Origin: Boothiomyces macroporosus
Lineage: Eukaryota; Chytridiomycota; Chytridiomycetes; Rhizophydiales; Terramycetaceae
Assembly: GCA_027604185.1 (NCBI GenBank)
Contig: JADGKB010000027.1
Coordinates: 1-64,000 of the forward strand
Direction: 5' to 3'
Length of the DNA stretch: 64,000 nucleotides
The notes under the pieces were generated by a model, which searched no databases, was not told where the DNA came from, and saw only the letters and a program-made list of their open reading frames with translations. Numbering within the stretch: the stretch's first letter is position 1; the number at the start of each line of letters is the position of its first letter. The position numbers and the translations under genes are program-made. Shown here one piece after another: positions 1-64,000 of the stretch.

Positions 1-974
1 AGTGGTTAAAGTATTTTTGGAGTTTGCAAAAGACTGGACTGGTTGAGATTGAGTTGCAGGCACTTCATCGAACTGAAACAAATCACTGGATTGTTTGGTG
101 TGCTGAGGATTTAAATTTGCTTGCATTGAAGCAAATAAATCTTGATCAAACTCTGGTTTTGATTCATTTACTGAATTTGAAGACTGTCCGAAAATTGAAC
201 TGTTATTTGTAAGCTCCCTGAATGCGGCATATGGATCTTCCTTTTTCTTTTCTGGTTGTGCTTTCACTTGTTCTGCAACTTTTGGTTTTGGAAAATCAAA
301 ATCAAGAGGCGATTCTACTGCTTTGATAGGGTTTCCGATAGAATTAGACCTTGGTGGAGGAATGAATGGCACAGGTTCTACAGTGGTTGATTTGGCAACA
401 GGCATACTGAAATTATACTGAGGCTCCTTTTTCAAATTTAGTAAATCTGCTGAATCTGGAGCATCATGAGCATGCAAGTTTTGATAGCTTCCAAAGCGCA
501 ACATCTGAACAGGATTGCGAAGGTCATTGTTTTCAATGCGTTCACTCTTGATTGGAAATTGTGAAAACAAAGTTGGTTTGTTTTGAGGTTTAGCCGGACC
601 ACTTGAATATAAGCTACCTTGACTGTTTTGTGATTCTACGTTTTGATATCTCAACTTCATGTGAATGCGAACCAAATGCGATTGTTTCTCCTCCTTCATT
701 GGACCATATATTTCCACTGCTTTTTGATTCCCTCCCTTAATATTCTCCAGTTCTTGCTCTGTAAAGATTGAATTGTAAATTGACTTTATGCGGAAATTGA
801 ATTCACGAAGGATACCTGAGCATTCTTGGCACACAAAGGTGTTACATGTGGTGTTGATGAAGGTAGGAGACTAGGGTTAACCAAGGCTACTTTTTTCCCA
901 CAATCAAAGCAATATTTGTTTGCATGCTGCCTAATCAATTCTTCAAAAATCTCTTTTTGCGTCTTCTTTTTCAT
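1..974 (-). CDS. AGFG/HRB-type ArfGAP (3' part beyond window)
   Basis: This encodes a zinc-finger Arf GTPase-activating domain followed by a long disordered tail. Such proteins act at endosome or Golgi membranes. The start is the ATG at 974. One 20-nt intron (871-890) interrupts the zinc finger; after removal the domain reads NKYCFDCGKK then SPTFINTTCNTFVCQECSG, giving the CxxC...CxxC pattern and the arginine finger four residues after the last Cys (CSGILR). The following stretch FRIKSIYNSIFTEQELENI matches the AGFG subgroup (human VKSISMTTFTQQEIEFL) better than ARFGAP1-3 or SMAP. The tail is rich in Ser, Pro, Asn and Gln, with DLF- and DPYAAF-like motifs of the kind that bind endocytic adaptors. 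About 318 codons are visible and the frame stays open to base 1, so the C-terminus is missing. Confidence 0.85.
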
Positions 975-1232
975 TTAAAAGATTCCACGACTTTGCGCCT
1001 TTTAATTCCACAAATGATTATGATTGAATGGCAATTTAAATACAAGCGTGAATCCATCAATATGCGGATATATTAGATCTCACGTTTTCCCGCTATGAAT
1101 CCATAAAATAATTCTCGAGTTTAGAGTCTCGTAAAGTAACTCTCGAGTTTAGAGTCTCGTAAAGTAACTCTCGAGTTTAGAGTCTCATAAAGTAACTCTC
1201 GAGTTTAGAGTCTCGTAAAGTAACTCTCGAGT
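975..1232. other. Intergenic, mostly minisatellite
   Basis: This is the upstream region of the AGFG-type gene and the downstream region of the glutaredoxin gene. The right half is the 28-bp tandem repeat listed separately. No open frame or RNA gene was recognised. Confidence 0.6.
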
Positions 1233-1235
1233 TTA
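1114..1235. repeat. 28-bp minisatellite, about 4.4 copies
   Basis: Units start at 1114, 1142, 1170 and 1198, with a partial fifth copy at 1226-1235. Each begins with the palindrome CTCGAG followed by tttaGAGTCTC. Copy 3 differs from the others by one base (cat for cgt). The array runs into the 3' end of the glutaredoxin gene: the partial last unit supplies that gene's TAA stop (1233-1235). Confidence 0.95.
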
Positions 1236-2272
1236 TTTGGGGATTAAATCTTTGAACTCTCCGTTGTTGATGAGCTCCTTGACAATATCCAATCCACCAA
1301 TCAATTCGCCATTGATATATAACTGTGGGAAAGTTGGCCAGTCAGAATATTCTTTTAATCCTTGGCGAACTTCTTCATCTTGTAAAATATCAAATGTATC
1401 AAACTCGCATCCTTGATCTTGTAGGATTCCAACCAAAACCCTTGAAAATCCGCATTTTGGGGTAGATGGATCACCCTAATATTAATTCCAATTACCTTCA
1501 TGAATAGCATCATCTTGTGTCTGTTGATCAACTTTTTCAATCTAGTGTTTAAATCTTCTTCTTCGGGTAATAGCTTTTGGAACTCTCCACTTGCAATCAT
1601 TTCCTTTAGGATATCCAATCCTCCGACAAATTCGCCATTGACATAGACTAGGCATTAAAAAATATTACTTTGAGGGAATGTAGGCCAATCCGAGTACTCC
1701 TTTAGTCCTTGTCTGACAGATTCATCAGCCAACTAAATTAACCATAAATTACAATATCAAATGATCCGTACTCGATATTCAATCCATTCAGTAACTCAAC
1801 AGTCTGTCTTGAAAACCCGCATCTAGGTTGAGATGGAACCCCTTTCATAAATAGCTAAATTAACATCAAGTACCATTACTGGGTGAGAGGTAGTCAAGGT
1901 CTTTAATTTATCCTTTAAATCCAAGACAACCGGAGCAGTAGTGAATGATGAATTCTGATATTTGGAAGCTAAAAATGATAGCTGTGGTGCATTAGATCCT
2001 TCAATTCGTTCAATTTCCTTTCCATCTTTCAAAAACACAAAAGTAGGAACTGTTTCGATTTCAAAATCCATCGCCAATTCTTCCACTTGTTCTGCATCAA
2101 CCAGAAAGTAGGACAGCTTTGGAAAGTTTCTTGAAGTTTCTTCAAACACAGTGTTCATATGAAGGCAAGGCTCATGGAAAGAAGCATAAAAGTTGATGAT
2201 TGATACTCCGGATTTATCCAGCTTCTGGAATTCGTCGATTGAATTGACTGTATTTACGTTGTGCTTTGTCAT
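1233..2272 (-). CDS. Monothiol glutaredoxin GLRX3/PICOT type (Trx-Grx-Grx)
   Basis: This is a cytosolic monothiol glutaredoxin that binds a glutathione-ligated [2Fe-2S] cluster for iron sensing and trafficking. Five exons (introns 1855-1873, 1733-1752, 1648-1668, 1476-1495; 19-21 nt) give 319 aa. An N-terminal thioredoxin-like domain (about residues 1-115, with a single Cys in FHEPCLHM instead of CxxC) is followed by two glutaredoxin domains. Each carries a CGFS active site ([13 protein letters not shown] and [13 protein letters not shown]), a WPTFPQ-Y-NGE motif and GG-D. Fungal Grx3/4 proteins normally have one Grx domain; two is the animal arrangement. The start ATG at 2272 gives a complete thioredoxin fold. 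The gene is divergent from the ion channel, with 84 bp between starts. Confidence 0.93.
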
Positions 2273-2356
2273 TTAAAGTTGAAATTTTTCCCCCAATCTG
2301 ATATCCGATTCACGTGATTTATCCCTTAAGCCACAACTCAAAGTTTGAAATCTTCC

Positions 2357-5300
2357 ATGTACGCCAAACGTGTTATTAAACAGTCCATGAGAGAGAGACA
2401 GCCGTTACTGCCTGCAGAGCATGAACAGGAATCTGATTTTACGGATAGCACAGTTAATACGCTGGAATTTCCGAGTGAAGTAAACAAAAGATTGGAATGG
2501 GTGTACTGGCTGGACAGGTCAACATTTAGTATATGGTAAATATATATTTATATTAGGTAAGTATCAAGTGATATTAGGTATTTTCAATCTAAATCAGGTG
2601 GTATTTGGTTGCTGATTCAGGGATATTACGGATGCGATTTTAAATTTGATTTTTATAGGTTCATATATCACACTAACAGTTCTTTCTATTGGTCCAAGAG
2701 TACGTTTAGTCTGATGATAGGGCACACCAACTGCACCACCCCCGCCAAGTGAACATTACCAAACAATCGACTTTATCATATCGCTACTGCTTTTTGTTCA
2801 ATGGCTCCCTCGCTTGTATATTACCATCAATCCCGCCAAAGAAATCAAGTCTACATTTTCCCTTTTGACACTTGTGTCTTGTGTCTCTGTATTTGTGGTA
2901 TTTTCAAACCTTTTTCATACCGAAGGGACTTTTCTGGAAGGTAAGTAAAGCTCATGTAGGTGGTGTTGTAGTCTTTTTATATCCATTTCGATTTTGGAGA
3001 CTTCACTCAACCATAGCAAGATGTTTCAGACCCAGGAAAAACTCTTTTCTACGGATATCGATAATCAATCAAAAATCAATCTTGCTCGGACTGTCTATAT
3101 TCAATACATTGGTTGCTGTGACAGCTTGGGTTCATATCTGTCTCTACAAAGTTCAGAAATATTACGACTTGAACTTTTTTGACATTTTCTATACAATTGG
3201 TAATACTTATTAACCAGAGCTGTAAGTTCTACCTCTGGGCTTAGTACGCAAATCATTCCGGATAATATTTTTAGCAGGATTATTACGTTAGGTGTCATGA
3301 TTATTGGGGCTATTTTTATTCCCACTCAGTTATCAGACTTGCTGGCGATGATTCGAAACTCTTCCAAATTCACAAAGCCTTATCAATTTACTGACAATAC
3401 ACGACATGTGTTGGTCGTGGGTAATTTGGAAATTGTGGCTCTGAAAGGGTTCTTGAGAGAGTTTTTCTCTCCAGATCATGGGAATGGAACAATGATTATG
3501 ACTGTTGTTTTATTGGCAATAGATGAACCAAATGAAGAACTACTGGCATTATTGGCCGACCCTGTTTATAGTAACAGAGTAAAATACATCAAAGGATCAC
3601 CAATAAGCTTTCGTTCTCTACAAAAAGCCAGAGCAGATGTAGCTTGTGCGAGCTTTATATTGGCTTCCCGCATATCAGACATTTCCCCTGTAGAAGAAGA
3701 TGCTAAAACTGTAATGCGGTGTCTCGTAAGTTATTAATTGACAAGTCTATTAGAAAATTCAACAAGAAGATTAAGATTTACGCTCAGATTCTTTTACCAA
3801 GAAATAAGATTCATTTGGAAGGGTTAGGTATGTCCAGCTAACTATAGCTGACCATGTGCTGTGCATTGATGAATTCAAACTAGGAATGGCTGCCCAAAGT
3901 TGTCTGGCACCAGGATTTTGTAATTTAATGTACCTTTTGACCAATTCAATATGTACAGATACGATTGGTGGATTACAAGACTTTCAAGATGGGCTTTGGA
4001 TCAAAGAGTACTTGGAAGGAGCAATGATGGAGCTGTACGAGATCAAGCTGTCTTTGGAATTTTCAAATTTGAGATTTGAAGAGATAATTGTACCGTTATA
4101 CCAAAAGCATCGAGCCATTGCTTTTGCAATTGGATTGGATATTGATCACGATCAAACTGGCACATTTGGATCGAATCAGCAAATCCTTTTTAATCCCACA
4201 AATCTAGTTTTAAAAGGAGGAGAAACACTATTCATGATTGCTGATTCAGACCAGACAACAAAAATAATTGAAAAGCTACACACGCATGACATATTAAGTG
4301 TGGAAAACAATGAACAATTTTGGGTTCTCGAACGAGTGCAATACTATTTTGAAAACACAACCCGCCATTCAATTCCAAGAATGTACCGAGAGCTAAAGTA
4401 CTCTGAAACTGATTCTCTGGAGAAAATACCATCAGTTACTGGAAAATCGAAAAAAGGCAAAACAGATGATTTCACTGTTGTAAACAGACAATCTGGGACA
4501 AATAAAGTTGAATCAGAAGCCCCCACTGCTGCAGAAATTTTTGGGACACCATTATCATCGTTTTCATCGTCTGAAGATGAACTTAAAACCCCAAGGGCCG
4601 CTGTCGGGTCTTCAGCCTCAACAGCTATCAAATTGGAACAAGTCGTTTCAGTTCTTGAAGCTGTTGAGAAACCAGAATATATTTCTGGAAAATCGCTTCC
4701 CGAAAAAGTCAGAGACCATGTAGTTTACTGCTGTATAAATCCTGTATTTCCTATCAATTTAGCGTATTTTGTAGCCCCGTTCCGCCAAAAAGAACCGAAT
4801 TCACCAATTGTTATTCTCTGTCCATCTCCACCAGAAGATGAAGACTGGAAAGTATTGTCTGATTACAACAATATTTACTACATTGTTGGCACACCTCTCC
4901 TCCGAAAGGATTTGAGGAAAACCGGAATTGATAGAGCTCTGTCAGCAGTTATCTTTTCTGATCCACAACCAGACAGTGTTACTGATCGCTCAGCAGACGC
5001 AACATCCTTATTAGCATTATTAAATATTCAAGCCTTGACAAGTGAATCACGAATATTCATAACAGTTGAATTTATACACGATCAAAACATGAAATTTATT
5101 GGGCATTCAAAACAATCCTATCGAGCCGCTGCTATCAGCGATGTTACTGAATTTCAATCCCAGAACCTAATTCCAGCATTTGCAGGAGGACATGTGTTTT
5201 CGCAATCAATGTTCCACTCTGTTCTTTGTCAAGCATATTATGAACACAATTTGCTATCAGTACTTCAAGTAACTATTGCTAATCTAGATGTTCTTATTTA

Positions 5301-5566: not shown

Positions 5567-5569
5567 CAC

Positions 5570-5601
5570 AATAAAAACAAAAAACTGGCATCTTTTTTAT
5601 T
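5570..5601. terminator. Facing AATAAA poly(A) signals between convergent genes
   Basis: AATAAA on the plus strand at 5570-5575 lies 4 nt after the channel stop. TTTATT at 5596-5601 is the minus-strand signal just after the stop of the coiled-coil gene. The two stop codons are only 36 bp apart. Confidence 0.6.
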
Positions 5602-5602
5602 G

Positions 5603-8600: not shown

Positions 8601-11566
8601 TGATCTTGAAGCTCAACAAGTCTTCCATTCAAAATATCCAATTCATTCATCTTGGCATCCAATGTCTTTGTGACATCCTTCAACTTGTCCTCCAATGACT
8701 GCAACTTTTCTACCCAACCTTGAATTTCCACTTGTTTATCTTCAAGTTGGGTTTTCAACTGCTTTATCTGTTCTTCATAGCTTTTCAGTGTTTCATCTGT
8801 AGTGCTGTCTTTTGTACTTTGTTTTACACTACGTTAGAAAATCAATACTGAAGGTCCCATTCCGACTGAACATATTTCAACTCCTCTTGTAGATCTAAAA
8901 TTTCATTCTCCTTTTCTTTATTGTCTGTTTTCAATTCCGTGATTTCAGCTTCCAAGGACTTTTTGGTATACTCTAATGACACCAACTGAGACTCCAAACT
9001 AGCTTTTTCTTTGTTTACCTTTTCTAGAGTCTTTTGAAATTGACCATCTAGTTCACTTTCAATTGAGCCCAACTTGGATTTCATGTCTGCAACTTCTTTC
9101 TCCATCACTGCATAGCTGCGCTTCATATCATGCGCATTCTTTACCTGATTCAGGACCTTTCCCATTTCTCTTCTAATTTTGGACATTATTTCCTGGTGAG
9201 CTTCGTCTACAAACATTGCAATTTGTGGAGCCAAAAGTATTTTAACTTCTTGGAACGCCATATCTTCCTCTTTTGCACTTGGATAATCCGTAAGAGCATA
9301 TGCATTGATTTTCGAAACACTGGCTTCTGCCTGCAACACATATTCGTGAAACTCTTTTAATTGATTTGAAACTGTGGCTATAGTAGAATTCGATTGGCAA
9401 AGTTTGTCTTCTATGTCAGCCCTTTCCCTATTAGCAACTTCAGCTTTCATCTTTGCACTTTCAACTTGATTCAGCAAGTTATTTATTTCGTAATCATCCT
9501 TGATTTCTTTAAACTGTGCTCCCAACTCTTCCAAAGAGGCTTGAAGTTCATCAATAGTTTGATCCTTTTCTTCAATTGTCGAATTTAAACCGTCAATCTT
9601 TTCCTGGAGTTGGGCTACGTTTTCTTTGAACGCTCTGATTTGATTTTCATATTCTTCTGCCTCCAAATTTTCCATAACTTTGTGCACAGCATCTGCAAAG
9701 GTAACTTTACTTGGAGAAGTCAACTTGGATAGCTTGGGCATGCTTCCAGCAGGTGATAATATACTATTTCTGACTTGTCGCACATACCCAGGTTGCCCGA
9801 TCGAAATGCGGTTATTGGAATTAAGTTGATTCAAACTTCCACTTTCGCTAACTGCATTCATCGCAAGTTGTTTATCCCGATCATTGAGCTGCTTCAGTAG
9901 TGTAAAATTTTGCTCCTTTAAGGTTTCCAGTGCTTCATCTTTCTTTACAATTACAGCCTTTAAATCTTCATTTTCAATTTTCAATACTTCAAATCTAGAG
10001 TTCTTGGTTTTTTCTTCCTTTAAAAGATGATCCAATTGACTGATTTTCTTTATAGATTCTCTCTTGTAGGCTTCAAATTCCTTGAACAGAGATGCTGCAT
10101 TCGTCACTTCAGAGGAGGAGCCTTGTCTTGAATGTGACGGTAATTGGCTTAATTCAAAGTTAGATTTGGAAGCCAAGCTGACTTGCTTTTTTGCAATTCG
10201 TTCGAATTCGCCTAATTTTGCCAAAAGCCTTTGTATTTCTCTTTTCTGCTCTTCTTGGTACTCTCGCTCTTTTTGAATTTCTTCCTTCAAGCTTTCAATT
10301 TCATGTTCATAGTCACTTCGAATGAAATTCATTCCACTATGGTCAAAAAAAAGTACTTTTCAAATGATATAGAGTCATGATTCACCGGTTCAAATGGATC
10401 AACATTCTCCTTTTCCATAGGCAACACTGCTCCAAAATGAAATGTTTTGGATTTGAATTTTAGTTTGGTGTCAACTTCTTTAATTTCCCTCTCATCAAGC
10501 CTATGCTCAGAACTTGATTTGGAGCTTTCCGGGATAACAGATAAGTCAGACCCTGTGTTTACTTCCTTTTTCAAATCTAAAGTAGATTTGACGGCATCTT
10601 CAATAGGTTTTAGCTTTGCAATGTCGATTTTTGATTTCGAATCAAATTCAAGTACACTAACAGAAGCCCCACCAACTGCAGATGACGCGCTGCTATTGAT
10701 ACTCAAATTTCCTAGTAAATTTGAATAAAAGTTTTCGGTTTTGATGTCTGCCGTAGATAACGCTTTGTTGTTGTCCAAAACCGTGTTACCACCTGTACTA
10801 CTGAACGAAATGACTGAAAGTCTTTTGCCTCCACCATAGTTATTCTTTTGCTTAGTGTTTGTAGTCCCAGTAGTTGGGGTAGGTGTGGAGTTTGAGGATC
10901 CAACACTGTGTTCGAGCGTGGTAATAATTTTTTCTGGAATAGTTCCTTCAGATTTATGTTTCATGTCTTCTTTTTGTATAGATTCTTCATTATTTCTATC
11001 TGGCTCTTCTATTGCTGGAACTTTAGCCTCTGAATTGAGTGATATTTCAGAAATCTCCTCTTCCTTTCCAACAAAAACTAGGGGACTTGAAGTTTGGCTG
11101 TTGGCTTCCACTTCTGGGTTAGGAGAATTAGTTTTTGAAGCTAGATACAGATTTTCTGGTGCTTCAATCCAGTCAACGGGCTCTGAAAACTCGCTGTCTT
11201 CATCGGTCAAATTGTCCAGACGCGACTTTGAAGGTGATACCGACAAGTCAGTGTATAAACCAGGTATTTCACTAAAGTTTGTAGTTTGGACGCTGTGTTC
11301 ATCTCTTTGCTGAGCTAAATGCTTGACAAGGTCTTTTTGCTGATTCGAATCCAAAGATACTTCGTCGGATAAGCTTTGAATATCGGATATAATGTCAGCT
11401 TGAATGTGCGACCGTTGCTATATTAGTTTCAAGTTACGCTGTTGGACGGCTCAGGGTTTACTGTCACTGTATGCATTGTTCGCGGAACTGTTGGGTCAAC
11501 CTGCTTGGGTTGGGTGTCTGTACTGTTGGTATTATTTGTCGACTCGTTCTTATATATCGTCGACAT
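5603..11566 (-). CDS. Giant coiled-coil protein (1,967 aa), centrosomal/golgin-like
   Basis: Four exons (20-nt introns at 11418-11437, 10337-10356, 8829-8848) give a frame of 1,967 aa. The first 400 residues are acidic, Ser/Thr-rich and disordered. The rest is almost continuous heptad coiled coil with only short breaks (for example around the RNSILSPAGSMPKL segment). The C-terminus has a Cys pair (NCGNPACN) and ends in a basic helix rich in Lys, Arg and Glu. There is no motor head, GRIP, CAP-Gly or membrane segment, so it is probably a scaffold such as a centrosome/basal-body or Golgi tether protein. I could not assign an orthologue. The start is the first ATG of the open frame, reached only after restoring the first intron. 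Confidence 0.8.
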
Positions 11567-11691
11567 TTTTAGTGAAGTTTCGATACTCACGAACTCTTGT
11601 TAACACCATTACGTCATGTCAAATGTTAGTAGATTTAAATTTATTTATACAAGGAGAGAGTTAGTTCTAGATGCCTATAATTAAGACTATA

Positions 11692-17222: not shown

Positions 17223-19546
17223 ATGGACGAAAGTGAAATGGAGCTGGAAAACTTTCAGAAAGGATTATCACAAGAAGAATCAGACTCGGACTTGGAGCCT
17301 CCATTTGAAATACATGGAATTTCACCGGCACAAAATCAGACATTTCCTCACCCTCTTGAGCCAAAGCTGTTTGATGGTGATTTCGCTCCTTTCCCGCAAA
17401 CAGTAAAGACAGAACAGAGTAATATTCCAATGCACACTACAGTTAATGATTTTCCAGACACGGATTCGGATGATCAAGCCCCAGAATCGATTCAGTTTGA
17501 GATGAGACCACTTGTAGCAGAGGATCGACCACCAAATAGACAGTATGATTTATCGCATTTGCAAACTCGACCAGAACCAGTGAGGAACAGACAAAGACAA
17601 AATCCTAGACCAAAAATCACAGGGTGGAAAGATGTCCGGAATTTAGATTCATTCCTTACAAGGGTAGGCCAATTCCTTATAGTTAGATTTATAATTACTA
17701 CGAAGGCAAAGGGTTTGTATGTATTATATTGAACCAAATCACGGATTTGCTGACTGTATTGTTCATTGTTGTGTTGTGCACATTTCTGGGTGAATGTATA
17801 GACTACTCGCTGATTCATGATTCAAAGAAACTGGAGCAAATTCTAGTGCCAGAGTGTTTTAATAGGTATTCATTTTTAATCCAAGCATGCGGATCATCAC
17901 AAAGTTTATCTTGTTTTTCAGCATGTCTTGGATATTGTACCAATTCATTCGTATTATAGGAGAGATACCCGATTTGCTGGAGATTAGAGAGTTTATGCAC
18001 AATGTCCTCAAAGTCAATGATGTTGAGCTTCAAACGATATTGTGGAATGAGGTTACAAAGAGAATGATCGAGACTAGAAAACTGACCACTCAAAGTCACC
18101 CTAATGAACGCTTTGATGCACATGTAATCGCCAACAGAATTCTTAGAAAAGGTAGGATATACTTACGATAGAAAACTACATGATTGCACTGTTCAACAAG
18201 GATATTTTGGATCTATCAGTTCCTTTTCTTGGATCTTCTCCATGGATGACATGGCTAATGCAAGACTACCTTACTTATGGGCTATTTTCATATGTTTTTG
18301 ATGAAAGTGGAAAGATACGAAAAAGGTTTTTGAAGCAAAGGAACCGTGAAGTTCTTACTGAGGGCTTGAAAAAAAGATTTCAAAATATGGCAAGTTTTCT
18401 TAATCTTAGGCAATTATTACTCTTGTCTTATCTCCATTTCTCTTCTTCTTTATGGTCGTCAGATCATTTTTCAGAATGGCAGAAGAGTACAGACAAAACC
18501 CGTCACTCCTAGGTGCACGAAGTTATTCAACATTATCCCATTGGAAAATGAGAGAATTCAATGAGATGCCGCACTTGTTCAACAAAAGATTGTTGCGCAG
18601 TTATGAAACTGCAAACAAATACATGCAGCAGTTTCCAAATCAAGTCGTGATTATTCTTGCAAAGTAAGTGGTATTAATCTAGATTTATTGCATTCGTATC
18701 TGGATCATTTGCCACTGTGCTGCTAGTAATAACGCTTTTTGAAGAAGAATTCCAGCAAGGATTTGAAATCACTCCAACAAAATCGGCTTTTTTCTACATT
18801 GGTGTGTTTGGATCTATCATGGCAATAGCTCAAGGTGCTACTCAAGAGAATATAGTTCATGAGCCAACAAGGTGGTTTCAAGAAGTAGTGCTAGATACCC
18901 ATTACAATCCTCCCGAGTGGAGGGATCAGTCACACACCCAAAAAGTACGGGATGAATTTGGAACAATGTTTCAGTACAAGATTGTCCTTATTGGGCTAGA
19001 AATATTGTCTGTAATTCTTGCACCAGCAATTCTGTACTTTTCTTTACCCAGTTGTTCGGGAAAGATTATTGATTTTTTCAGAGAATTTTCAGTACACGTA
19101 GACTCTACCGGTTATGTATGTTCATTTGCAGTGTTTGATTTTGAAAAGAATGGAAATGCAAAGTATGGCGCAACCAACAGGCCTATAAATGAAGACAAAG
19201 CCTCAAAGAACGGCAAAATGGAAGTATCCATGATTAATTTCAAAGTAATTCCTTTTAACAGTAGAACAACAACCCTGATTGGGATCCTGGCAACAGGAAT
19301 ACAGAATATATATCCAGGTTGATTAATAGGAGACCAATGAGAAATGATTTAGCAAGAACTGTACTTACTCAACGAATGACTGGCATGGGAATGGGGATGT
19401 CTCATGCGATGGGCAATTCTGAAATCCCGCACTCAATGATACAAGGCGAATCAATGATTGGCAGTGTTATTACCCCAGAGAATATTGGACGCGAACTCTT
19501 TGGATTGTTGGATGCAATGTATGAAGCTAATAGAAATCTTAATTGA
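17223..19546 (+). CDS. ATG9: Autophagy protein ATG9 (lipid scramblase)
   Basis: ATG9 is the multispanning scramblase of autophagy vesicles. Seven exons give 733 aa. After an acidic disordered N-terminus comes the ATG9 core: NLDSFLTR-IYNYYEGKGFVC, LTVLFIVVLCTFLGECIDYS, ANRILRKENYMIALFNKDIL, LVLSPFLFFFMVVRSFFRMA, LLGARSYSTLSHWKMREFNE, AKFIAFVSGSFATVLLVITL, FFYIGVFGSIMAIAQGATQE and SVILAPAILYFSLPSCSGKI. The C-terminal tail is Met/Gly-rich. Introns: 17664-17686 (23 nt), 17866-17885, 18152-18171, 18390-18409 (GC-AG), 18664-18682, 19245-19264. The start ATG at 17223 is the first in the frame. Confidence 0.95.
18390..18409 (+). other. 20-nt GC-AG intron in ATG9
   Basis: Only removal of gcaagttttcttaatcttag restores the frame from FQNM to AIITLVLSPFLFFF. 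A GT start one codon later would leave the wrong phase. The 5' end GCAAGT is the classical GC-AG donor. Confidence 0.8.
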
Positions 19547-21025: not shown

Positions 21026-21097
21026 TAATCGGATATACTCAGAAATCAAAAAAAAGATATTTTAGTAAAGCAGCTTTCTATTCCTAAATAGAACAAA

Positions 21098-21813
21098 TTA
21101 ACAACAACCACCTCCAGCTTGCTGGGTAGGTACCGCTTGTCCAACTTTAATGTTTGCTTTATCTTTTGAAGGTTGAGCTGATGTAGTGGATCCCATTCTA
21201 TATTAGTGATCGTTAACCTGTCTTTAATTTGTTTTGCCATTGTCATGAAAGCTTGTTCGACATTGGTAGCGTTTTTAGCAGAGGTTTCCAAGAATGGAAT
21301 GCCCAATTGGTTTGCGAATTCCTACATCAATAATCAAATACACTGGCTGTTGTGAATTCCACAACCTTCTTTTCGACTAAATCGGATTTGTTTCCTACTA
21401 GAAGTTTATTGACACCCTCTGATGCGTATCGGTCAATTTCCTGAAGCCATTGCTTAACATTTGTAAAAGTGTCTTGGTCTGTAACATCATAAACGACGAT
21501 AATTCCGTGTGCTCCACGATAATAACTGGAAGTAATGGTTCTGAATCGCTCTTGACCTGCAGTGTCCCAAATTTGCAGTTTGACTGTTTTCCCTTCGAGC
21601 TCAATGGTGCGAATTTTCTAGTTTAATAATAAAGTACGAAATCAACTCCAATTGTGCTGATATAGGATTCAGTGTAAGTGTCATCCTAAATTAATGAGCG
21701 AGTACAGCAAAACGCAGCAAGAGACAGGATTTTCCGACACCAGAGTCTCCAATAAGTAAAAGTTTAAAGAGGTAATCGCTTTGGTTATTTCAAAGTTACT
21801 ATTCTGGATTCAT
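21098..21813 (-). CDS. YPT1: Rab1/Ypt1 GTPase
   Basis: This is the Rab GTPase of ER-to-Golgi traffic and early autophagy. Six exons (introns 21779-21799, 21686-21705, 21618-21637, 21322-21341, 21198-21217) give 204 aa. All G motifs are intact: GDSGVGKS (P-loop), [20 protein letters not shown] (switch I and Rab-specific), [20 protein letters not shown] (switch II), GNKSDL and [14 protein letters not shown]. The C-terminus is GGGCC, the double-geranylgeranylation signal; it appears only when the last intron is removed, which confirms the model. Confidence 0.97.
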
Positions 21814-22051: not shown

Positions 22052-24091
22052 TTAATTGTTATAAATTGTGCATGTAGAATCAGCTCCACCAGAAGCCATC
22101 ATGCCTTTATATACAGAATGATGGTCAAGTGCCCAAACCCCTTCGTTCCCTTTTGTTTTAAAGGTATTCAATTCTTGGACAACTTGCCTGGAATCAAAAT
22201 CATACCATTTAATAAATCCATCATGGCCTGTAATTAGTTTCAAATACCTCCTGATTCTAAAACAGTGCCATCTGACGATATTGACAGAGCCGATACGCCT
22301 CCAGCATGACCTTGGATTGTTGTGATTACTTTGCCTAGATTAAATTCAATTACCAGTATGCATATCAAATAATCTAATGTCACCATCCTCATGTGCTGTG
22401 ATTAATATTGGTTCTATTGGGTGCTTTATAATCTTGTTGATTTGAGTGCGAATTGAAGAATCTAAATGAGAATATAATTACCAAATGTTTTGTTGCTTTC
22501 AAAAGTAGTCGATACAGATCCGGTTTGAATATCAAATGATTTGACTATACTGTTCTTGTAAGAGCCTATAATTGTGTTTGCATTGCCCCAACATACACTG
22601 GTTGGAGATTCATATTGAGATGTAGATGATTTTGTGAATCCGTTGTACCAAAATGTAGATTTCAATCCTGAAGATTCCAAATTTACATCCCACAGCTTGA
22701 GCGAACCATCTGCAGAAGCGGATATCAAAAAGGGGGTGGCTGGATGAGGTTTGATTTCCCAGATAGCATCAGAGTGCCCAACTAAAGTAGATACGGCATA
22801 CGAAGGTTCTAAATTAGAAACTATCTTGCCATATTTGGAATATGCAGGTCTATTTAACGGAGGAATATTCCAAATTCTAACAGTTGCATCCATACTTGCT
22901 GTAAAGCACACTTCATCTAATGGAGATATTGCTACACTGGTTACTGCGAGTGTATGCCCTCGGAATGTGATAACAGTCTTTGAATCTCGTCTGCAATTAA
23001 AGAAAATTACTCTTTATCCACTATTGCACTGGGAGATATACGCCATAGCTTTGCTGTTTTATCTTCAGACCCAGATAGTATGGCTAAATCGGTTGGATGA
23101 AAAGCAATTGAACGAACAGAATCAAAGTGACCTCGCAGAGATGGTTGGGCCGCCCATTGACTTTTCTTTACAACATTGGGAATTGCCAAAGTTTCGTAGT
23201 TAGCACCAACTTCAGTCCCATAATTGGTGCTCAAATCACTCGGAGGACTATCTGGAGAATTACCTGTTGGGGTATAATTCATTGTTTCATCTAAATAAAA
23301 TCAAATATACCTGTATCAATCTTTTTAATTGACGGTGGTAACTTTATCGACCCTTTAGACATGGTTTTTGCGTGCCCATACTTTTTCTTTGAACGATCTG
23401 GTTTGATTGTAGCTGACTGCAAGTCAAAGTTTTCTGGCAGATTACCAAATTCCATTCCACTTGATTCGTCTTGGAATGGAGATCGTTTGATTGTGCCTTT
23501 CTTGTAAAACTCTTGGTCATGGTCGCTCATTTCTTCTTTTTTCAATTCCATAGTTTGCGAAGGGAGTTCATTGGAAACCTTTCGACTAATGGTTGCAGTT
23601 GATAGTAGTACATCAGCTTCTTTTAAATAACTTGTTAGTAATGAAAAACCTCTTTAAAAGCTCTCTGCTTCTGGAATGACCAAATCCTTTGGTGAAATTC
23701 AACAAAGTGCCTTGTGGTAAGGCATTCGCTTGCGGAGTAGAAGTTTCGGGTGGCTCTGGTTTATCCTCTTCAACAATAATAGGTGGTGCAACAGGTGTTG
23801 GAGAAATGGTTTGTTCACCTTGCTTGTTCCTCTCTTGCTTCAACGCATATTCCAACATCTTTATCCTCCGTAACAGATCTGACTTGAGATTATCCATCGC
23901 TCTTCGCTCTCCTTCCAAGTAAGCGACTTTGGCCTTTTATTAGCTGAAAATACTTTTAATTCCGATCTTTCTATCTCCCATTCGTTCCGTTCCCGTTCAA
24001 ACTTTCTCCATTCTGTTTGCAAATAGTGGAGCACTCCAGGAAAGGAATAATTTTTCAAGTGGTTGGGAAGTGGTTTTTGAGATTCACTCAT
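22052..24091 (-). CDS. Striatin family WD40 protein (STRIPAK regulatory subunit)
   Basis: Striatins are the PP2A regulatory B''' scaffolds of the STRIPAK complex. Eight exons (seven introns of 19-20 nt, e.g. 23934-23953, 23631-23649, 23291-23310) give 633 aa. The N-terminal striatin domain is unmistakable: YSFPGVLHYLQTEWRKFERE, then VAYLEGERRAMDNLKSDLLR and RRIKMLEYALKQERNK. A linker containing RELLKSYLKEADVLL follows, then a C-terminal WD40 propeller with blades SLRGHFDSVRSIAFHP, TFRGHTLAVTSVAISP, TLVGHSDAIWEIKPHP, and a last blade ending ASGGADSTCTIYNN. Its start codon is 14 bp from that of the divergent S-formylglutathione hydrolase. Confidence 0.95.
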
Positions 24092-32153: not shown

Positions 32154-34486
32154 TTAGTTTATATAGGCGTATTGATCTTTTTCTTCTGTCCGTTGAATAA
32201 ACTGCTTCTCAATCAATCCTTCAATACATTTTTTAATCAGGGGAATAGAGGGATTGAATCTGCTGCTGGAAGTGCGAATAACTTCATCAACAAGTGCTAG
32301 GTGAGACATTTGCTGATGGGCCTTCATTACCCGCACAATTACTGCTTGGATAAAGTACCTTCGATCTTCTTCTACTGCTTTCTTGGCCTCGCTGGCTTCC
32401 TCCTTCGAATCTGCAATAGCTATTGCAGGCAGTTTTAGTTTTACCCGTTTGCTAACGTTAGGATCTGCTTACTTTGTAAAATTATGATTTATCTTGAATA
32501 TTGCATTATCTTGTAATAATATTTCAAAGTCAATGAATGATTTAAGAATCTTTTCAACATCGCCTGGCTTGAAGTTGGTGATATTAGACAACTCTTCAAT
32601 AGTGTACTCTTCTGCTCTATTGTATGGCAGTATTATCATCAGTTGACGCAATGATAGACTTAGTTCGTATTTCTTGTCATAAAAATTCATTTTGATTTCT
32701 CCTCGAGAAAAGTGGTGGTTCCAAACCAACTTCCTGCCCACTCTAGAAGATGGGTTAATGTAAAACGCATTAAATTCATGAATTCGAGTTTCAATCAAAG
32801 TTTAGAGCAAGTGTACCTCAGGTGGCAGCTTATAGTCAGCATATGTATCTGAAGGAATCGGCCATGATCCAGTTGTCAGTACCAGCACATGAAAATCGTT
32901 CTCTCCGTGAGTTTTTTTGTATTCCGCATTGATTTCGTCACTGAGCGTAACATCCGTAAACATCCTTTGCATTTTACTGGTGAATTCAAATCCACAAGCT
33001 TCCTTCAGCTTGGAGATCATTGATAGTTCAATATCATTTGAAGTTGAAGAATTATACAATAGCCTCTTTGCCAAGGAACGCATGTAAAACTTTTGGAAAA
33101 GATCTTTCTCGTCGATATATACAAACAGTTTTGTAAGTTTAAACAGCTTTGCTTCCAGCTCCTGCTCGGACAATTGTATTTTGGACGATTTTTTCAGCAT
33201 ATGGTCAAAATACTTTGAAATAATTTCAGGGAAATTGATATTGGAAACAACAGTCGTGTTATTGATCAAATATCTAAACGCCTATGTTATCTTTGGCTAC
33301 CTTATCCATTGCAGCCTCAAATTCGTGCTCGCTTTCAAAAGAGTTTACTACAAATTGAAGATACTTGTCATGGAAAACTAGAATCTGGTCTAGGAATGAA
33401 AATGGATCTTTGTACTCTCTTTGGGCGTAGTCTATTAACACTTTTGAAATATGCTGTTCAAATGTTTCTACTGGTTCCCTGATCCCATCTGGAATTTTGG
33501 AAATTATCCTGTATGCGAGTAGTGAATTTCGTTCATCTTCATTCTGTATCATCACCTTGAATTCTTGCTGAATTTTTGATATATGGCTAATAATATATCC
33601 TTCCTTGAACGCATCCAGAACCTATTTTTAGGGTTATTTACCTTTTCATTGGAGGATTCATGCAGGTATCGAATATTCCGCTCAGACTCTTCATTGAATC
33701 TGGCCAACCCACGCTCAATAAATGTCGATATATCTACATTGCCTATAAGGTTGGTTGACTCGGCTGAATAGTATGAAACTGTGCTTTTGAGATACAAATC
33801 TTCAAATTCCTGCACATATAGCGCGATTGGTTTATCAGAATGGCTATTCATTTGAACTGTTATTAACAACTATTGTTACTGAGGGAATCAATGCAGGTTT
33901 TGACTACTTGGTCGTTGATTGCGTTTCCATTGCGGTTTTCTTGAATATTGGACATAATCTTTTCAATGAGCAAGTTGGAATGGTCCATATTCAGCTCTGA
34001 AAGTATCTTTGTCTGCCAAATGATATGCGCATGCTAATTTAACTTGGGATTACAGCAATTACCGGTAGTCTGAGTAGCTGGTCTGCTGGAGTGTTTTTGT
34101 ATGGATTTGATTTATGGGCCAGTTGCTTGTTTAGATACTCACAGGCTCTATTCATATGCACAGCAGCCAAATGATATTTTTCCCACTGCTCGGCGTATCC
34201 TTCCAGTAAATTCTTGGAGTTCAAGATAATCTACATCAATTTGGGTTTACTTTTTTGATTCCTACGGCATGTTCCGTTAAAAATTCCACAATCGCATTCA
34301 ATAGCATTTCAGATCGTGGTTCTGGTAATGCGGTACAGCAATCAAAAGTCATTTGGTATAATGCAATGGCATTTACTTGAGTGCTGTAAAGAAACAAGGA
34401 GAGTAACTCCAGTCTAAAATTTTCAAATAATTCTTCAAAATTGATCGTCTGTGTCAGAAAGGCTCTACCTTTGGACGAAGTGTCAT
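32154..34486 (-). CDS. Cullin-1-type SCF ubiquitin ligase scaffold
   Basis: Cullins scaffold RING ubiquitin ligases. Nine exons give 719 aa with an intact frame. The start at 34486 lies in a tiny first exon (MTLRPK) joined over a 20-nt intron (34449-34468) to TINFEELFENFR, the usual cullin N-terminus. Cullin repeats follow (AEQWEKYHLAAVHMNRACEY, RYLHESSNEKVLDAFKEGYI), then the cullin homology domain (KDLFQKFYMRSLAKRLL, MISKLKEACGFEFTSKMQRM, LTTGSWPIP) and the winged-helix end with the neddylation site region YFIQAVIVRVMKAHQQM and SSRFNPSIPLIKKCIEGLIE. Introns include 34231-34250, a 29-nt one near 34040, a 23-nt one near 33860, 33622-33641 and the TG-ending 32796-32816. Confidence 0.93.
32796..32816 (-). 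other. 21-nt intron with TG instead of AG acceptor (cullin)
   Basis: Joining PPE to IETRIHEFNAFY restores the cullin frame and aligns without gap to PSELERSYQRFTAFY of human CUL1. The intron begins gtacac and ends ctaaactttg. No AG exists nearby; the next one downstream would remove the conserved FNAFY block. Confidence 0.7.
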
Positions 34487-35920: not shown

Positions 35921-36514
<594 letters not shown>

Positions 36515-40359: not shown

Positions 40360-41808
40360 TTATTGAGACAACAGCTTTGCGAATTCAAGCACATTCAAGT
40401 CGTTTCCATACTGCCCAACCAATTGAATACCGATTGGCAATCCATTTTCATTCCCGCCATTCATACTTATGGCTGGCAGCCCTGCTAAACTTGCAGGCAC
40501 AGTAAAAACGTCATTGATATATGGATTCCAATCCTTACTCTTTGTCATTTCCAAAGTTGGAGCTACATCTAACGCACTTGGGGTAAGCAAGAAATCAATT
40601 TGCGGAGAGTTTTCGTATTTTGCACCTGTTAATGGATTAACAGCTTGAAATACTCTATCGAAATCATCCTGGACTTGCTTCCGAACTTTCTGGGCTGCCA
40701 CATAAAACCGAGATTTTTCCCTATGGTTACTTTAATGTTACAGTGACTTTAATACATAGGCTCCAATCATGATACGTTTTTTGACTTCGTTACCAAATCC
40801 TTCAGTCCGAGTTTTGAAAAGGGAATCTTTGTAATTGTCACCGTTCGCCTTGAATCCGTATCTGATTCCATCGTATTTTGCAAGGTTAGAATATGCTTCA
40901 GCAGGAGCAATTATGTAATAGGCTGATAAAGCCTGGGATGTTGATGGAATGGATACTGGTACGATTTTTGCTCCCCTCTTTTCCAATTTCTCCAATGTTT
41001 GACTCCAAACTCTTAATACAGCATCTGATATCCCATCAACATGGTATTCTTGTGGAACCCCTATCCTTAAATTTTCAATCTCTAGGATTTCTTTCCTTTC
41101 CTTTGAAACAATTGAAGTCGGGTCCAATTCATCTTTTCCTTTTAGAACATCTGAATTAGTTTCCAATCAAACCAAATACATCACAAATGATATTCAAGTC
41201 TTTTGAAAGGATGCCAACCGTGTCCAGTGAATGAGCATAAGGTATCAAACCATATCTGGAAATACTGCCATAAGAAGGTTTAAATCCATATATTCCGCAA
41301 TATGAAGCTGGTAAACGAACACTACCACCTGTGTCTGAGCCAATAGCCCTAGATTTAGCAATGTTTTACACAGCACAGAACCCTGCTGCAACCGCTGCTG
41401 CACTTCCTCCAGAACTGCCTCCACACACTCTTAAAGGATCAACAGGATTCAATGATGGTCCATAAAAACTATTTGTATTGAAGGATCCCATCCCAAATTC
41501 ATCCATATTTGCCTTGCCAATTATCAATCCTCCTTCCTCCTTTATTTTTCTGACGGCTGTAGACTCTATCGGTGAATAGTACGCTAAAATAAAAACGATT
41601 TACCAGACAGTATTTTCGATGCGCATGTTGTTTTGAATTCCGCTGTCGCAAAATTATCCTTGACCACTATTGGAATCCCCCTCAGTCTCCCATTCTTATT
41701 CCCGATCTGATCAAGTAGCATCTGCGAATCGGTTTGTGATATCAGTGCATTCAATCTTTTGTTTTTCAAGTGAATTTGACGAAAACACTCTACCACTTTT
41801 TCCTTCAT
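40360..41808 (-). CDS. Mitochondrial Glu-tRNA(Gln) amidotransferase subunit A (GatA)
   Basis: An amidase-signature enzyme that releases ammonia from glutamine for mitochondrial Gln-tRNA synthesis. Five exons give 454 aa from ATG 41808. Catalytic triad: Lys in [11 protein letters not shown], first Ser in [16 protein letters not shown], second Ser in [20 protein letters not shown]. Further family stretches: [67 protein letters not shown] and [20 protein letters not shown]. It is about 30-40 residues short at the N-terminus compared with homologues; an upstream exon in 41820-41990 is likely but could not be placed with confidence. AATAAA overlaps the stop. Confidence 0.9.
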
Positions 41809-46544: not shown

Positions 46545-47862
46545 TCAGAGCTCTTCATGCTTTACTTTTTCTTTCTTTAGCTTTGGTTCGAGTGTAAAGG
46601 AAGTCATGCCTAATCCGGCACTGGTAGCATCCAAGAAGGACGAAATAGAAGGCTCATCAAAAGCGGTCTTCAACACTCGATAGGACTTTCTAGGGTAATT
46701 CAAGGCTAGCATGGAAGGATACATATCGCTTACACCAAAATCTCTGATTAACTGAGATCCAGTTTCAATCGCATTCACCCAAACGAAATTATAAAGATCT
46801 TTTTCATAGTACTTTGTCTTGACAGCTTGAATGACCGCAATATGTTCATCCAATGCTTTAGTGCTTTCTGGATACTCAGGCTCGTGAGTCAAGAATGAAA
46901 TAATGCAGGTTTTATCAGCAAGACAGAGTTTCTTCAAGTCATCTTGGTTTTTGATTTCAGGAATTTTTGGATCATCTATTGTTACGGATAGTTACATTTT
47001 ACTTTCTTTTCCTTTTGCTCACCCTTCTTCTTTTCGTCCTTCTTGTCTTTCTTTTTCTTCTCTGTCTTCTTGCGTTTGGATGGTAATGCATACTTGTCCA
47101 GGAACTCTACAAGCTGCGCTTGTTTCACGATTCCATCGTACGCGATAACATTTGAACCATCTTTAGGGAATATTAGGATTGCAGGAAAAGTTTCAACGCC
47201 CAATTCAGCTACCAATTCGGCGTTAGAGCTTTTTACTTCACCAAACGCAAGTCTATCCAAATATTCAATCGAGAGAGCTTTAAACAGCGGAGGGGTAGTT
47301 TTCTTGTCTGTCACCAATACAACTTTGTCGACTTTGTCATTCTAGATTAACACGTATTTACAGAGGCCTTGAACTCTTCCAACGTAACCGTTTTCTTGTG
47401 TCTTTGTCCAATCTTGGCCACATGCTTGCTTGGAATCATTGGCAATACGGTATCCATAATTGCCTTTGCTGTACGTTCTCCTCTGTAATCTTTATCAATG
47501 GCTCGTTACCTTGAGGCATCCCTTTGGCACCAGCAGGGAAAATCTTTAGCGTTGGGAATCCTTGAACCCCATATTGGCCACAGAGTTGTTGGTTTGCTTT
47601 ATCATCACAATCTACATTCACCAGTTTCACCAATCCCTTCAATTTTGCAGCTGCCTGGTAATAATCTGGTTTCATTGCGCTACAATGTCCACACCTACAT
47701 TAAATGATCTTACCATGCTACGATTAATTAGGTGTTACGAGCATAGAACATGACAAATACTACACCTGGTTCTGCTAGCACAACATCCTTAAAATCCTTG
47801 TGATTTGCTGGCACAACACTTGCTAATACAGCAGTAAGAGCAAGAAGCAGATTAACGATCAT
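46545..47862 (-). CDS. ER protein disulfide isomerase, P5/Mpd1-like
   Basis: Six exons give 405 aa. A signal peptide (MIVNLLLALTAVLASVVPAN) is followed by one active thioredoxin domain with APWCGHCSAMKPDYY and GQYGVQGFPTLKIFPAGAKG, and a second thioredoxin-like domain without CxxC (LVTDKKTTPPLFKALSIEYL, LGVETFPAILIF). A Lys-rich linker (KKTEKKKKDKKDEKKKGEQK) precedes a third part, LVEF...DLYNFVWVNAIETG. The C-terminus is HEEL, a plausible ER-retrieval variant of HDEL. The active-site codons are split by two introns with a 4-nt exon between (47695-47738). Divergent from ferrochelatase, 124 bp between starts. Confidence 0.92.
47695..47738 (-). other. Two introns flanking a 4-nt micro-exon in the PDI active site
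   Basis: On the minus strand a 21-nt intron (47718-47738) and a 19-nt intron (47695-47713) enclose only CATG (47714-47717). Including these four bases gives FYAPWCGHC; leaving them out destroys the WCGHC motif and the frame. Confidence 0.88.
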
Positions 47863-47986: not shown

Positions 47987-49177
<1,191 letters not shown>

Positions 49178-54075: not shown

Positions 54076-54229
54076 ATACTAAAAGTAAGAGCGCAAACTA
54101 TGCGATGACGTCAATCCCCTTCCATACAAAAACAACATCAAATTCAACTCAAGTGGCGATCAAGATGGAATCTGGAGCAGATCGTTTATTAGCTGCAAAT
54201 AACATTTTTTCTCCAAACTTTTTCACAAA

Positions 54230-54716: not shown

Positions 54717-54786
54717 AGTCTTATCCATAACCCTCGATTTTCAATATAATTTGTAAGAATTGAATTTTGACTTTACGCGTTTCGCA

Positions 54787-56693: not shown

Positions 56694-56747
56694 TTTCATA
56701 AAATTGTATTAATATGTTTATATGTTATGCATTTATTATCATTAGTT

Positions 56748-59700: not shown

Positions 59701-59757
59701 TTCATCTACATGGTGTTTCTGGAACAATATTTCTGCGTCCACTTTGTCCTCTTCCAT
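56748..59757 (-). CDS. COG1: Conserved oligomeric Golgi complex subunit 1 (COG1)
   Basis: COG1 is part of the tethering complex for retrograde transport within the Golgi. Ten exons (nine introns of 19-22 nt) give 940 aa, in the family range. The N-terminus is diagnostic: VDAEILFQKHHVDELRSILL, DRKKQDLRTMVGNSYRDVID and AADAVGQMKQSTEELI match human COG1 (FETHGAEEIRGLER, LRQMVGERYRDLIEAADTIG). The following region, LVTLYPIAAQIRLLVVTPEH with TASRYYMIAKLVYSNI, is also typical; the rest is alpha-helical, and the C-terminus has RFTLLPVTTPS. The start at 59757 is the first ATG. Divergent from FAM161, 119 bp between starts. Confidence 0.88.
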
Positions 59758-59876
59758 TTTCAGTTGGAGATTAAAGCAAAAATTGCAGTCTATTCAAGGG
59801 ATTAATTTATGCTCTCTATTTAACTACTGAAGCACCTTCTATCTAATGACATCACGATAGAATTTTACACGCAAAG

Positions 59877-61630: not shown

Positions 61631-61690
61631 ACGTGTATATACTTTTTCTCTTGAAACCCTTCATGTTTGGTATGACATAATCTTTGCTAA

Positions 61691-63177
61691 ATGGCAAAAT
61701 TAGGAGAATCAGATACAAATTTACCACAGACTACAGTCTCTCTATCAGCACTAAATCTAAATTCAAATTCAAATTCAGAAAAGGAAAAGGTAGATAGTAA
61801 TGAAAAAACAAACACGTAAGTAATGTTTGATTTAGAAGTAGCAATAACCAATCAGCGTCGAATTCAAATGTATCACAAGTAGTTAGATTCAAAACTGGAC
61901 TAAAAAACACGGTTTGGGATTGTATGCGTGATAGAGGATGGAAGGAAACCGATAGTGATTTAGACTGGGATTTCTTTTGGGCAGACGTTCATTGGATACA
62001 TGAAACGTTTGACCATGTATATCTCCAAGAGCAGCAGAGAATAAATCATTTTCGAAACCACTACGAAGTACGTGGTTTTAATACTAGCTGACAAGAAAAG
62101 ATTTGCTCGTTAAAAATGTCAAACGCATGATTAAAACGGTGGAAAAAGAATATGGGAAACAAGAAGCCCAAAAGTTTGAATTTATATCTACTTCTTATGT
62201 TCTTCCACAGGAGCATGCCCTCTTTCAGGAAGAATTCAAAAGGACACCTGGAGGGATTTGGATAATGAAGCCGGTCGGTAAAGCACAAGGAAAGGGGATA
62301 TTCCTAATCAACAAAATGAGTCAGATTTCCAGCTGGAAAAAAGACCCAAGGATTAAAGGAAAGGGAGATGATGAAAGTCCAGAAGCTTACATTGTACAGA
62401 GGTACATTGAAAATCCGTACTTGATTGGAGGCAAGCCATAATTAACAAAGGCAAAAAGTTTGATATCAGAGCATATGTATTAGTCACATCGTATTATCCT
62501 CTAGTAGTTTACATACACCGAAACGGATTCTGCAGATTTTCAAACTCTCAATTTTCAATGAACGTTAAAGATATTTCAAACATGTATATTCATGCGACAA
62601 ATGTTGCCATCCAAAAACATAATCCTAATTATGACGGCGACAAGGGATGCAAATGGTTACTAAGAAATTTAAAGACTTTTTTGGTAACCAAACACGGGAC
62701 AAAAAAGATTGACGAGCTGTTTACAGAAATGGAAGCCTTAGTGGTGCGTAGCCTAATGAGTGTGCAAAAAGTAATGATCAATGACAAGCATTGCTTTGAG
62801 CTTTACGGATACGATATTTTAATTGATGATAATTTGAAACCGTGAGTTGTATTGACGATAGATGGCTACTGGAAGTGAATGCGTCGCCATCATTGAGCGC
62901 AGAAACACAATTTGACTATGACTTAAAGTATGCAATGCTCAATGACGCATTCAATGTGGTAGATTTAGAAAGAAAGTAAATATCGCATAATGCTAGATAC
63001 CAGGACAAGAATAAGTTGCGAACCAGAGTAGGCGGGTTTGATCTCGTTTATAATGATGGGCCGGTGAAGCATGAAAGGACGAGCAGCTATTCATCCTATC
63101 TTGGATGCTACCAACCTATTCCTAGGGCTCCCAGAGTAAAGAAGCGATTTGCTGCCAGAGAAAGGGCAAATAACTAA
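61691..63177 (+). CDS. TTLL9: Tubulin polyglutamylase TTLL9
   Basis: TTLL9 adds glutamate chains to axonemal tubulin. Six exons (introns 61816-61835, 62068-62087, 62431-62450, 62842-62861, 62976-62996) give 461 aa. It aligns closely with human TTLL9: [60 protein letters not shown] (ATP binding), [57 protein letters not shown] and the TTLL9-type ending [20 protein letters not shown]. The N-terminal 45 residues are Ser/Asn-rich. The fourth exon junction uses a GC-AG intron. It strongly implies a motile flagellum at some stage. Confidence 0.96.
62431..62450 (+). other. 20-nt GC-AG intron in TTLL9
   Basis: Removal of gcaagccataattaacaaag joins PYLIGG to KKFDIRAY, matching human PYLIGGRKFDLRVY without gap. 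The donor is GCAAG, as in the ATG9 case. Confidence 0.85.
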
Positions 63178-63253
63178 TAAAATACAATAGTGTTTCACTT
63201 TATGCGGCGCAAAACTTTTTGACCTCAACAAATTTTTCGCACAAGTTATCGAG

Positions 63254-63448
63254 ATGTTTAAATTTTTACTAGGAGTAGCTGTTGGTATCTATATCGCTCA
63301 AGAATATTCCGACAAGGTAATCAGTGGCTGACCAAAGATGCCACCAATCAAATTGGTTGTCCAAAAGGTGGTAGAAATGGTTTCGAAAGAAGTTCAAACC
63401 GCCAAGGACGACAAGAGTGAAAAGAAGGACGCACCAAAAGAAGAATAA
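63254..63448 (+). CDS. STMP1-like short mitochondrial membrane protein
   Basis: Two exons (21-nt intron 63317-63337) give 57 aa. MFKFLLGVAVGIYIAQEYSD matches the N-terminal membrane helix of short transmembrane mitochondrial protein 1 ([23 protein letters not shown] in human); a helical and charged tail follows (KLVVQKVVEMVSKEVQTAKD). This small-protein family sits in the mitochondrial inner membrane and is linked to respiratory complexes in animals. AATAAA overlaps the stop. Confidence is limited by length. Confidence 0.7.
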
Positions 63449-63539
63449 ATTCTGTTATATTAGTTTCGCTCAATTACAAGAAAATGTTCTATTAATGGCA
63501 CCCACTTTAGCATTGACAAGTCATTGAAACAATTCTGGA

Positions 63540-64000
63540 TTAATATTTCATTACCATAACTTCGGACCGAGATTTGCAGTTGAGCAAAAAGTCTCTTCTA
63601 AAGTCAAATATCGCAACCGCAGTAAGGGAAAGAATATCCAGAGAATCATATCCAATTATCCTGTCCCATAACAGCAGCACTTGGTCGCAGTCCAGTATAC
63701 CAACAAATGCGTACAAGATCCATTTAAAAGCAATTTCTAGAGGGCTGCAGTCTAAATTATGAGATAAATGGAAGAATAACTGTGCATCATGCTCTTTAAA
63801 GACATTTTCAAACAAGATTGATAGATAGAGGATAGATCCCTTCTTGTTGCATGGTATGTGTAGCTGGTGGAAATATCTGGTTAGCTTCATAGTACCTCAC
63901 ATACATTTCCCTGAATAGCAAATAAGCCTCCCCAGCATCAGTGAATAAATAGCACAGGGGCATTACGTACAATGATATTCCCCAAAAGGGATACATTCCA
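63540..64000 (-). CDS. TBC1D19-like RabGAP (C-terminal part, 5' side beyond window)
   Basis: Only the end of the gene is inside the window, with one 19-nt intron (63877-63895). The visible protein is LYVMPLCYLFTDAGEAYLLF, EMYVRYFHQLHIPCNKKGSI, LFENVFKEHDAQLFFHLSHN, SPLEIAFKWILYAFVGILDC, DQVLLLWDRIIGYDSLDILS and LTAVAIFDFRRDFLLN. This is the second half of a TBC domain and follows human TBC1D19 (HLKEIGAQPLRIAFKWMVRA, TDQLLLLWDRILGYNSLEIL). The catalytic Arg and Gln fingers lie upstream, outside the window. The Rab target is unknown. Confidence 0.85.

Follow-up and report, generated by a model that had tools for sequence, protein, structure and literature searches.

Protein-coding frames in the stretch of Boothiomyces macroporosus DNA analysed here (contig JADGKB010000027.1, positions 1 to 64,000; hereafter the window) are interrupted by segments of about 20 nucleotides (nt), which raises the question of what these segments are and how they could be removed. 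The host is a fungus, the protein matches being to chytrids, as the initial annotation had supposed in assigning the DNA to a holomycotan; the genus belongs to the Rhizophydiales (Chytridiomycota), and the isolates listed came from soil and aquatic pollen baits. The segments are almost certainly spliceosomal introns of one narrow class of 19–22 nt in the nuclear genome, which an ordinary U2-type spliceosome would remove; this reading is built on the segments, sizes, motifs, restored frames, homology and named machinery genes read from the DNA. The sample comprised the 64-kb window, which is nuclear DNA, and 20 stretches of 10 kb from other contigs, 264 kb in total, of an assembly of 15.2 Mb in 216 contigs.

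Regarding the length of the segments, pairs of the form GTA...YTRAY-N0-4-AG were tallied by length on both strands, without gene models and with order-3 Markov controls. The window counts at 19, 20, 21 and 22 nt were 28, 52, 17 and 8 (control 6.6, 4.4, 7.0 and 4.6), with 12 or fewer at every other length from 12 to 69 nt. The 20 other stretches (200 kb) gave 55, 96, 64 and 38 at the same four lengths (control 18.5, 18.5, 17 and 17), the next highest among the single lengths shown being 53 nt (28, control 13.5), while the bins of 60–150 nt were near control and no second motif peak was present up to 150 nt. The excess of GTA...AG in this count is confined to 19–22 nt, so that the GT-AG ends expected of U2-type introns were found. 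With strands taken from a motif-blind gene finder, the sense strand carried 54 motifs per length at 19–22 nt versus 10 at other lengths, and the antisense strand 10.5 versus 8.5. The same excess was seen outside called genes (25 versus 4 motifs per length), presumably in genes missed by the first model.

Gene finding pointed to the same size. A coding-only finder, whose training was restricted to long open frames and which permitted GT-AG introns of 12–400 nt at equal cost, called 304 introns, of which 90 were of 19–22 nt; no other single length below 60 nt was called more than seven times, and 145 calls of 60–399 nt were scattered without a peak. In a second run, with lengths again at equal cost and with site profiles learned from the finder's own 18–23-nt introns and then from all introns of at least 16 nt, 190 of 318 introns were of 18–23 nt. 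The final models, for which a length prior was added, GC donors were allowed and the acceptor profile favoured a branch motif near the 3' end, hold 461 introns in 111 models across the 264 kb; 409 introns are of 25 nt or less, and tiny introns occur in 91 models. The mean length of these 409 is 20.5 nt (standard deviation 1.1) and 390 are of 19–22 nt, values that are shaped by the length prior. Among the 95 introns with a length divisible by three, a stop codon lies in the true phase in 86, versus 53 and 61 in the other phases, a difference that selection against frame-neutral introns could produce and that finder bias would produce in the same way. The window models contain 113 introns of 18–23 nt, 59 of them of 20 nt, and three tests with different assumptions agree with the earlier claim that nearly all introns are of 18–23 nt and most commonly 20 nt. 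The automatic models overlook some tiny introns (the fifth of the Rab1 gene, two of a potassium-channel gene and four of a Siw14-like gene), and the earlier count of about 135 introns in the window is plausible. Scaled by length from this non-random sample, the models suggest about 23,500 tiny introns genome-wide.

Homology was assessed with 16 fungal proteins, the majority of them from chytrids, by spliced alignment to three genes of the window (ATG9, striatin and TTLL9), with GT/GC-AG introns of 10–1000 nt at a flat cost, GC being slightly dearer, and with neither a length nor a motif prior. Because GT/GC-AG ends were imposed both in these alignments and in the gene models, intron size and place are what these approaches assess, and they provide no test of the ends. 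Intron calls of 18–23 nt made up 79 of the 93, at 17 places with at least two references and at one with a single reference. The true introns might instead be longer or lie at other sites, the 19–22-nt class having come from forced frames; this is very improbable. Longer calls do persist in every gene-finder run, and the remaining 14 of the 93 alignment calls span 26–361 nt, but only one of these recurs, a 35-nt call with a GC donor in two of the four striatin references, at a place where the other two give 20 nt. Moreover, the length peak is present without any frame or gene model and also with flat length priors, and no gap falls at the intron sites in the alignments to human Rab-1A and to a mitochondrial GatA.

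Several observations nevertheless weigh against a single tiny class handled by U2-type machinery. Calls outside 19–22 nt numbered 214 of 304 in the coding-only finder, calls outside 18–23 nt 128 of 318 in the profile-trained finder, and 52 of the 461 introns in the final models are longer than 25 nt. From the second run onwards the site profiles derived from introns that the finder itself had called, at first those of 18–23 nt, and a length prior was added later, so that the counts of these runs depend to some degree on the size class. In a cullin gene on the minus strand (about 32773–32820), a long frame is broken by one TAA for which no GT-AG tiny intron was found that removes it, and a 21-nt segment there would require a TG acceptor. 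In the search for spliceosomal RNAs, U1 scored 68.8, just below the gathering score of 69.5. With regard to the 52 longer calls, AATAAA is present in 30 and reaches 3.4 per kb compared with 0.47 in coding sequence; because of this enrichment, many of them probably run across the ends of neighbouring genes. Three of the 10 longer calls in the window, which include the cullin site, could be settled: one of 351 nt gave way to tiny introns, and those of 81 and 301 nt bridge neighbouring genes. The proposal that the whole intron set is this small fits the single motif length class in the 264 kb but falls short of proof, given the 52 calls above 25 nt. A second intron class at 24–120 nt was considered and is unsupported: 12 of its 19 calls have an acceptor score under 1.51, the lower quartile among short introns, and nine contain AATAAA.

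The window genes show how removal of the segments restores the products. The window Atg9 equals the public B. macroporosus protein P0242 at 623 of 623 aligned residues. Its gene, on the plus strand, has GT-AG introns at 17664..17686 (23 nt, six of six references), 17866..17885 (20 nt, five of six) and 18152..18171 (20 nt, five of six), a GC-AG intron at 18390..18409 (20 nt, four of six) and introns at 18664..18682 (19 nt) and 19245..19264 (20 nt), both recovered by all six references. P0242 has one intron at 18152–18512 in place of that at 18152..18171, and at the GC-AG site the introns of the two Boothiomyces models are of 59 and 361 nt. The TTLL9 gene (61691..63177, plus strand), whose product is 94% identical to TTLL9 of Boothiomyces sp. 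JEL0866, has five introns of 20–21 nt, the first of which is poorly placed by the references; one is GC-AG (62431..62450, 20 nt, five of six references), and splicing it yields GGKKFDIR, whereas the public JEL0866 model P0001 lacks GKKFDIR. Seven introns of 19–20 nt were found in the striatin gene (22052..24091, minus strand), each site being recovered by two to four of the four references. In the public protein P0121 of Terramyces sp. JEL0728, striatin and Ras domains, which belong to neighbouring genes here, occur together, the probable explanation being that two adjacent genes were fused in the model and that the gene order is conserved. For four public Boothiomyces and Terramyces proteins, an 18–23-nt intron was aligned at 18 of the 21 GT-AG sites of their genes. 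At the places of GC-AG tiny introns in this genome, conserved residues are missing from the three aligned Boothiomyces proteins. Judged from these alignments, public models appear already to splice most GT-AG tiny sites silently and to fail at the GC-AG ones.

Gene names such as Siw14 and PDI go further than the family matches and are putative to that extent. The Rab1 gene (21046..21813, minus strand) has modelled introns at 21779–21799, 21686–21705, 21618–21637 and 21322–21341, and its spliced product has an ungapped match of 172 residues to human Rab-1A across all four. A fifth intron with a GTTA donor (21198..21217, 20 nt, minus strand), overlooked by the automatic model, gives the C-terminus AGGGCC when removed. 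In the Siw14-like gene on the plus strand, four introns picked by eye without a model, at 36010–36028 (19 nt), 36238–36257 (20 nt), 36284–36304 (21 nt) and 36422–36442 (21 nt), leave one open frame with HCNKGK. Reconstruction of the PDI active site (minus strand) requires introns at 47718..47738 (21 nt) and 47695..47713 (19 nt) around a 4-nt micro-exon, CATG (47714..47717), which is needed for YAPWCGHC; a single 44-nt intron breaks the frame. The restoration of GGGCC in Rab1, WCGHC in PDI and HCNKGK in the Siw14-like gene, on which the initial annotation had relied, was therefore reproduced. Gene models of a GatA-type amidase (40360..41808, minus strand; introns of 20, 21, 22 and 21 nt) and of ferrochelatase (47987..49166, plus strand; 20, 20, 20 and 19 nt) behave similarly: spliced GatA aligns to mitochondrial GatA without a gap at the four sites, and ferrochelatase to its human counterpart without gaps at sites 1 and 2, with site 3 beside one-residue gaps and site 4 at the end of the match. 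The proteins matched by spliced Rab1, GatA and ferrochelatase are ones of solved structure.

The potassium-channel gene, on the plus strand, has two introns that the automatic model overlooked (2941..2959, 19 nt, and 3200..3219, 20 nt). It also has four intron-like units at 2536..2620, with lengths of 21, 21, 20 and 20 nt; the first three abut with AG/GT junctions (2536–2597) and the last follows GTG. A tandem repeat of 21 bp (80% match) overlaps units 1 and 2, which looks like the duplication of a single intron, and the four could be removed stepwise or as one 85-nt intron. Two abutting 20-nt units also occur at 8930–8969 of one of the other stretches (L010). Elsewhere in the window, a 28-bp tandem repeat lies between two gene models (1104–1235; 4.7 copies, 96% matches). 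Rfam and tRNA scans of the window gave no match, nor did one window stretch in a phage collection.

Regarding the anatomy of the introns, the donor consensus is AAG/GTAATT (exon/intron), with A at +3 in 86% of the introns of at least 16 nt in the profile-trained finder; G occupies exon position -1 in 50%. The 409 tiny introns of the final models have 403 GT and six GC donors, the latter an addition to the initial annotation, and 277 contain a full YTRAY match. The A assigned as the likely branch nucleotide lies at intron position 14 in 141, 15 in 186 and 16 in 48 (standard deviation 1.1), and in 351 it is 5–6 nt before the intron end, i.e., 3–4 nt before the AG (standard deviation of tail length 1.0), which leaves no room for a pyrimidine tract. 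A branch-like site a few bases before AG had been proposed and holds for these introns, while the description of branch point and acceptor as fused was too strong, the two being close and not overlapping.

Assembly or sequencing errors, or removal at the level of DNA like that of the internal eliminated sequences of ciliates, could also produce such segments, since removing insertions of this kind would restore frames too. This explanation is extremely improbable: the branch-like motif, the G at exon position -1, the narrow length range and the sense-strand bias fit splicing, the public models of relatives, built on other assemblies, run through most of the sites without a break, and U1, U2 and U6 and proteins of the 3' splice site are present.

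The search for U1, U2, U6, SF1 and U2AF65 in the genome, which had been proposed earlier, matched all five, U1 with the shortfall noted above. U2 (two copies) and U6 are above their gathering scores, so that the matching small nuclear RNAs (snRNAs) for U2-type introns are in the genome, and the pairing sequences are canonical, U1 with AUACUUACCUG, U2 with GUAGUA and U6 with ACAGAGA. Scored by single exons, U2AF65 reached 230.7 bits, less than the cut-off of 310.3 that applies to the whole protein; the SF1-HH domain scored 114.6 bits, with KH and zinc knuckles also in SF1, and Yju2 223.4 bits. The reconstructed sequences of SF1, Yju2 and Cwc25 each match the respective Pfam family (CWC25 and Cir_N in the case of Cwc25), and Isy1 is represented by search matches only, starting at model position 4. 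Cwc25 begins with MGGG and has Trp12 and Trp24, the GGG plug thus being kept. The two 3.1-kb loci with Cwc25, L045 and L046 (contigs C49 and C100), are identical, reflecting either duplication or redundancy in the assembly.

It is unlikely, with rather more in its favour than the explanations above, that the introns are spliceosomal and a dedicated short-intron route has become general, with SPF45 replacing U2AF or with dependence on Smu1-RED. None of the seven G-patch proteins found is SPF45-like, and the only one carrying an RRM has it upstream of the G-patch, whereas SPF45 has a different domain order; this is weak evidence. A search for RED_N gave no match, and as the control also matched nowhere, the evidence of absence is weak. 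U2AF65 and SF1 are kept, which likewise speaks against such a route. On the other side, the 3–4 nt from the likely branch A to the AG are fewer than the 8–9-nt footprint of U2AF65 (PMC8363638), and human introns with a short distance from 5' splice site to branch require Smu1-RED (PMC6692369).

With an ordinary U2-type spliceosome, the reading preferred here, U1 would pair with the 5' site (AAG/GTAATT, with few GC donors), SF1, U2AF and U2 would mark the YTRAY-like branch site with its A 14–16 nt into the intron, and the spliceosome would form a lariat loop of 14–16 nt with a tail of 5–6 nt and join the exons at the nearby AG. Removal by this machinery and the role of this A as branch nucleotide are inferred; assembly on such short introns would call for U6/5' splice site and U2/branch helices that are either shortened or formed one after the other. 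We lean slightly towards the further claim that a fungal spliceosome with canonical U1, U2 and U6 contacts, SF1, U2AF65 and the Cwc25 plug handles introns of about 14 nt from 5' splice site to branch as its sole class, some of them in tandem or 4 nt apart.

Intron sets that are tiny and uniform have already been published from heterotrichs, from mikrocytids and from a nucleomorph, and what is striking here is the host and the retained machinery. The heterotrich ciliate Stentor coeruleus likewise has a genome-wide set of tiny GT-AG introns (15–16 nt), with a fixed branch A, a 5-nt tail and canonical U1 and U2 sequences (PMC9505925). In contrast, its branch A is at position 10–11, compared with 14–16 in the 19–22-nt introns here, and 18% of its genes have such introns (PMC9505925), compared with 91 of 111 gene models here. 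The Cwc25 GGG plug is lost in Stentor, and it has been suggested that a clash with the tight loop is more readily avoided without the plug (PMC9505925); as the plug is kept here, its loss would not be needed for a loop of 14–16 nt. Introns of the nucleomorph of the chlorarachniophyte Bigelowiella are of nearly the same size (18–21 nt) and narrow range (PMC10245619), in a relic nucleus as opposed to a 15.2-Mb fungal assembly. Mikrocytid introns (16–17 nt) also have a very narrow range and conserved motifs, in parasites with 17–19 spliceosomal proteins identified (PMC10245619), whereas here three snRNAs and SF1, U2AF65, Yju2, Cwc25 and Isy1 were matched, by targeted searches only. A mikrocytid source of the DNA, considered from the literature, was set aside in view of the chytrid protein matches. 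Among fungi, the introns of Cryptococcus neoformans are also dense but have a mean of 63 nt, about three times longer (PMC8476143). The available part of a survey of 644 genomes (PMC8476143) names no fungal set near 20 nt, and no tiny uniform intron set for a fungus was found in the openly licensed PMC literature.

For annotators, the GC-AG tiny introns mishandled in public Boothiomyces models are a warning. In human extracts, about 50 nt are required from the 5' site to the branch, and an estimate for the B complex puts the requirement at about 52 nt (PMC6692369). If the introns here are spliced as proposed, the minimum of about 50 nt in human extracts would not stem from the catalytic core, and on these introns a human-type B complex could not form as such, its extended U6/5' splice site helix and its 14-nt U2/branch helix being separate. 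A chytrid with about 14 nt would provide a fungal system for probing the lower limit of intron length and its cause, suited to tests of the geometry of the B complex, of the choice of a 3' site where no pyrimidine tract fits, and of the shrinkage of a whole intron set to one size.

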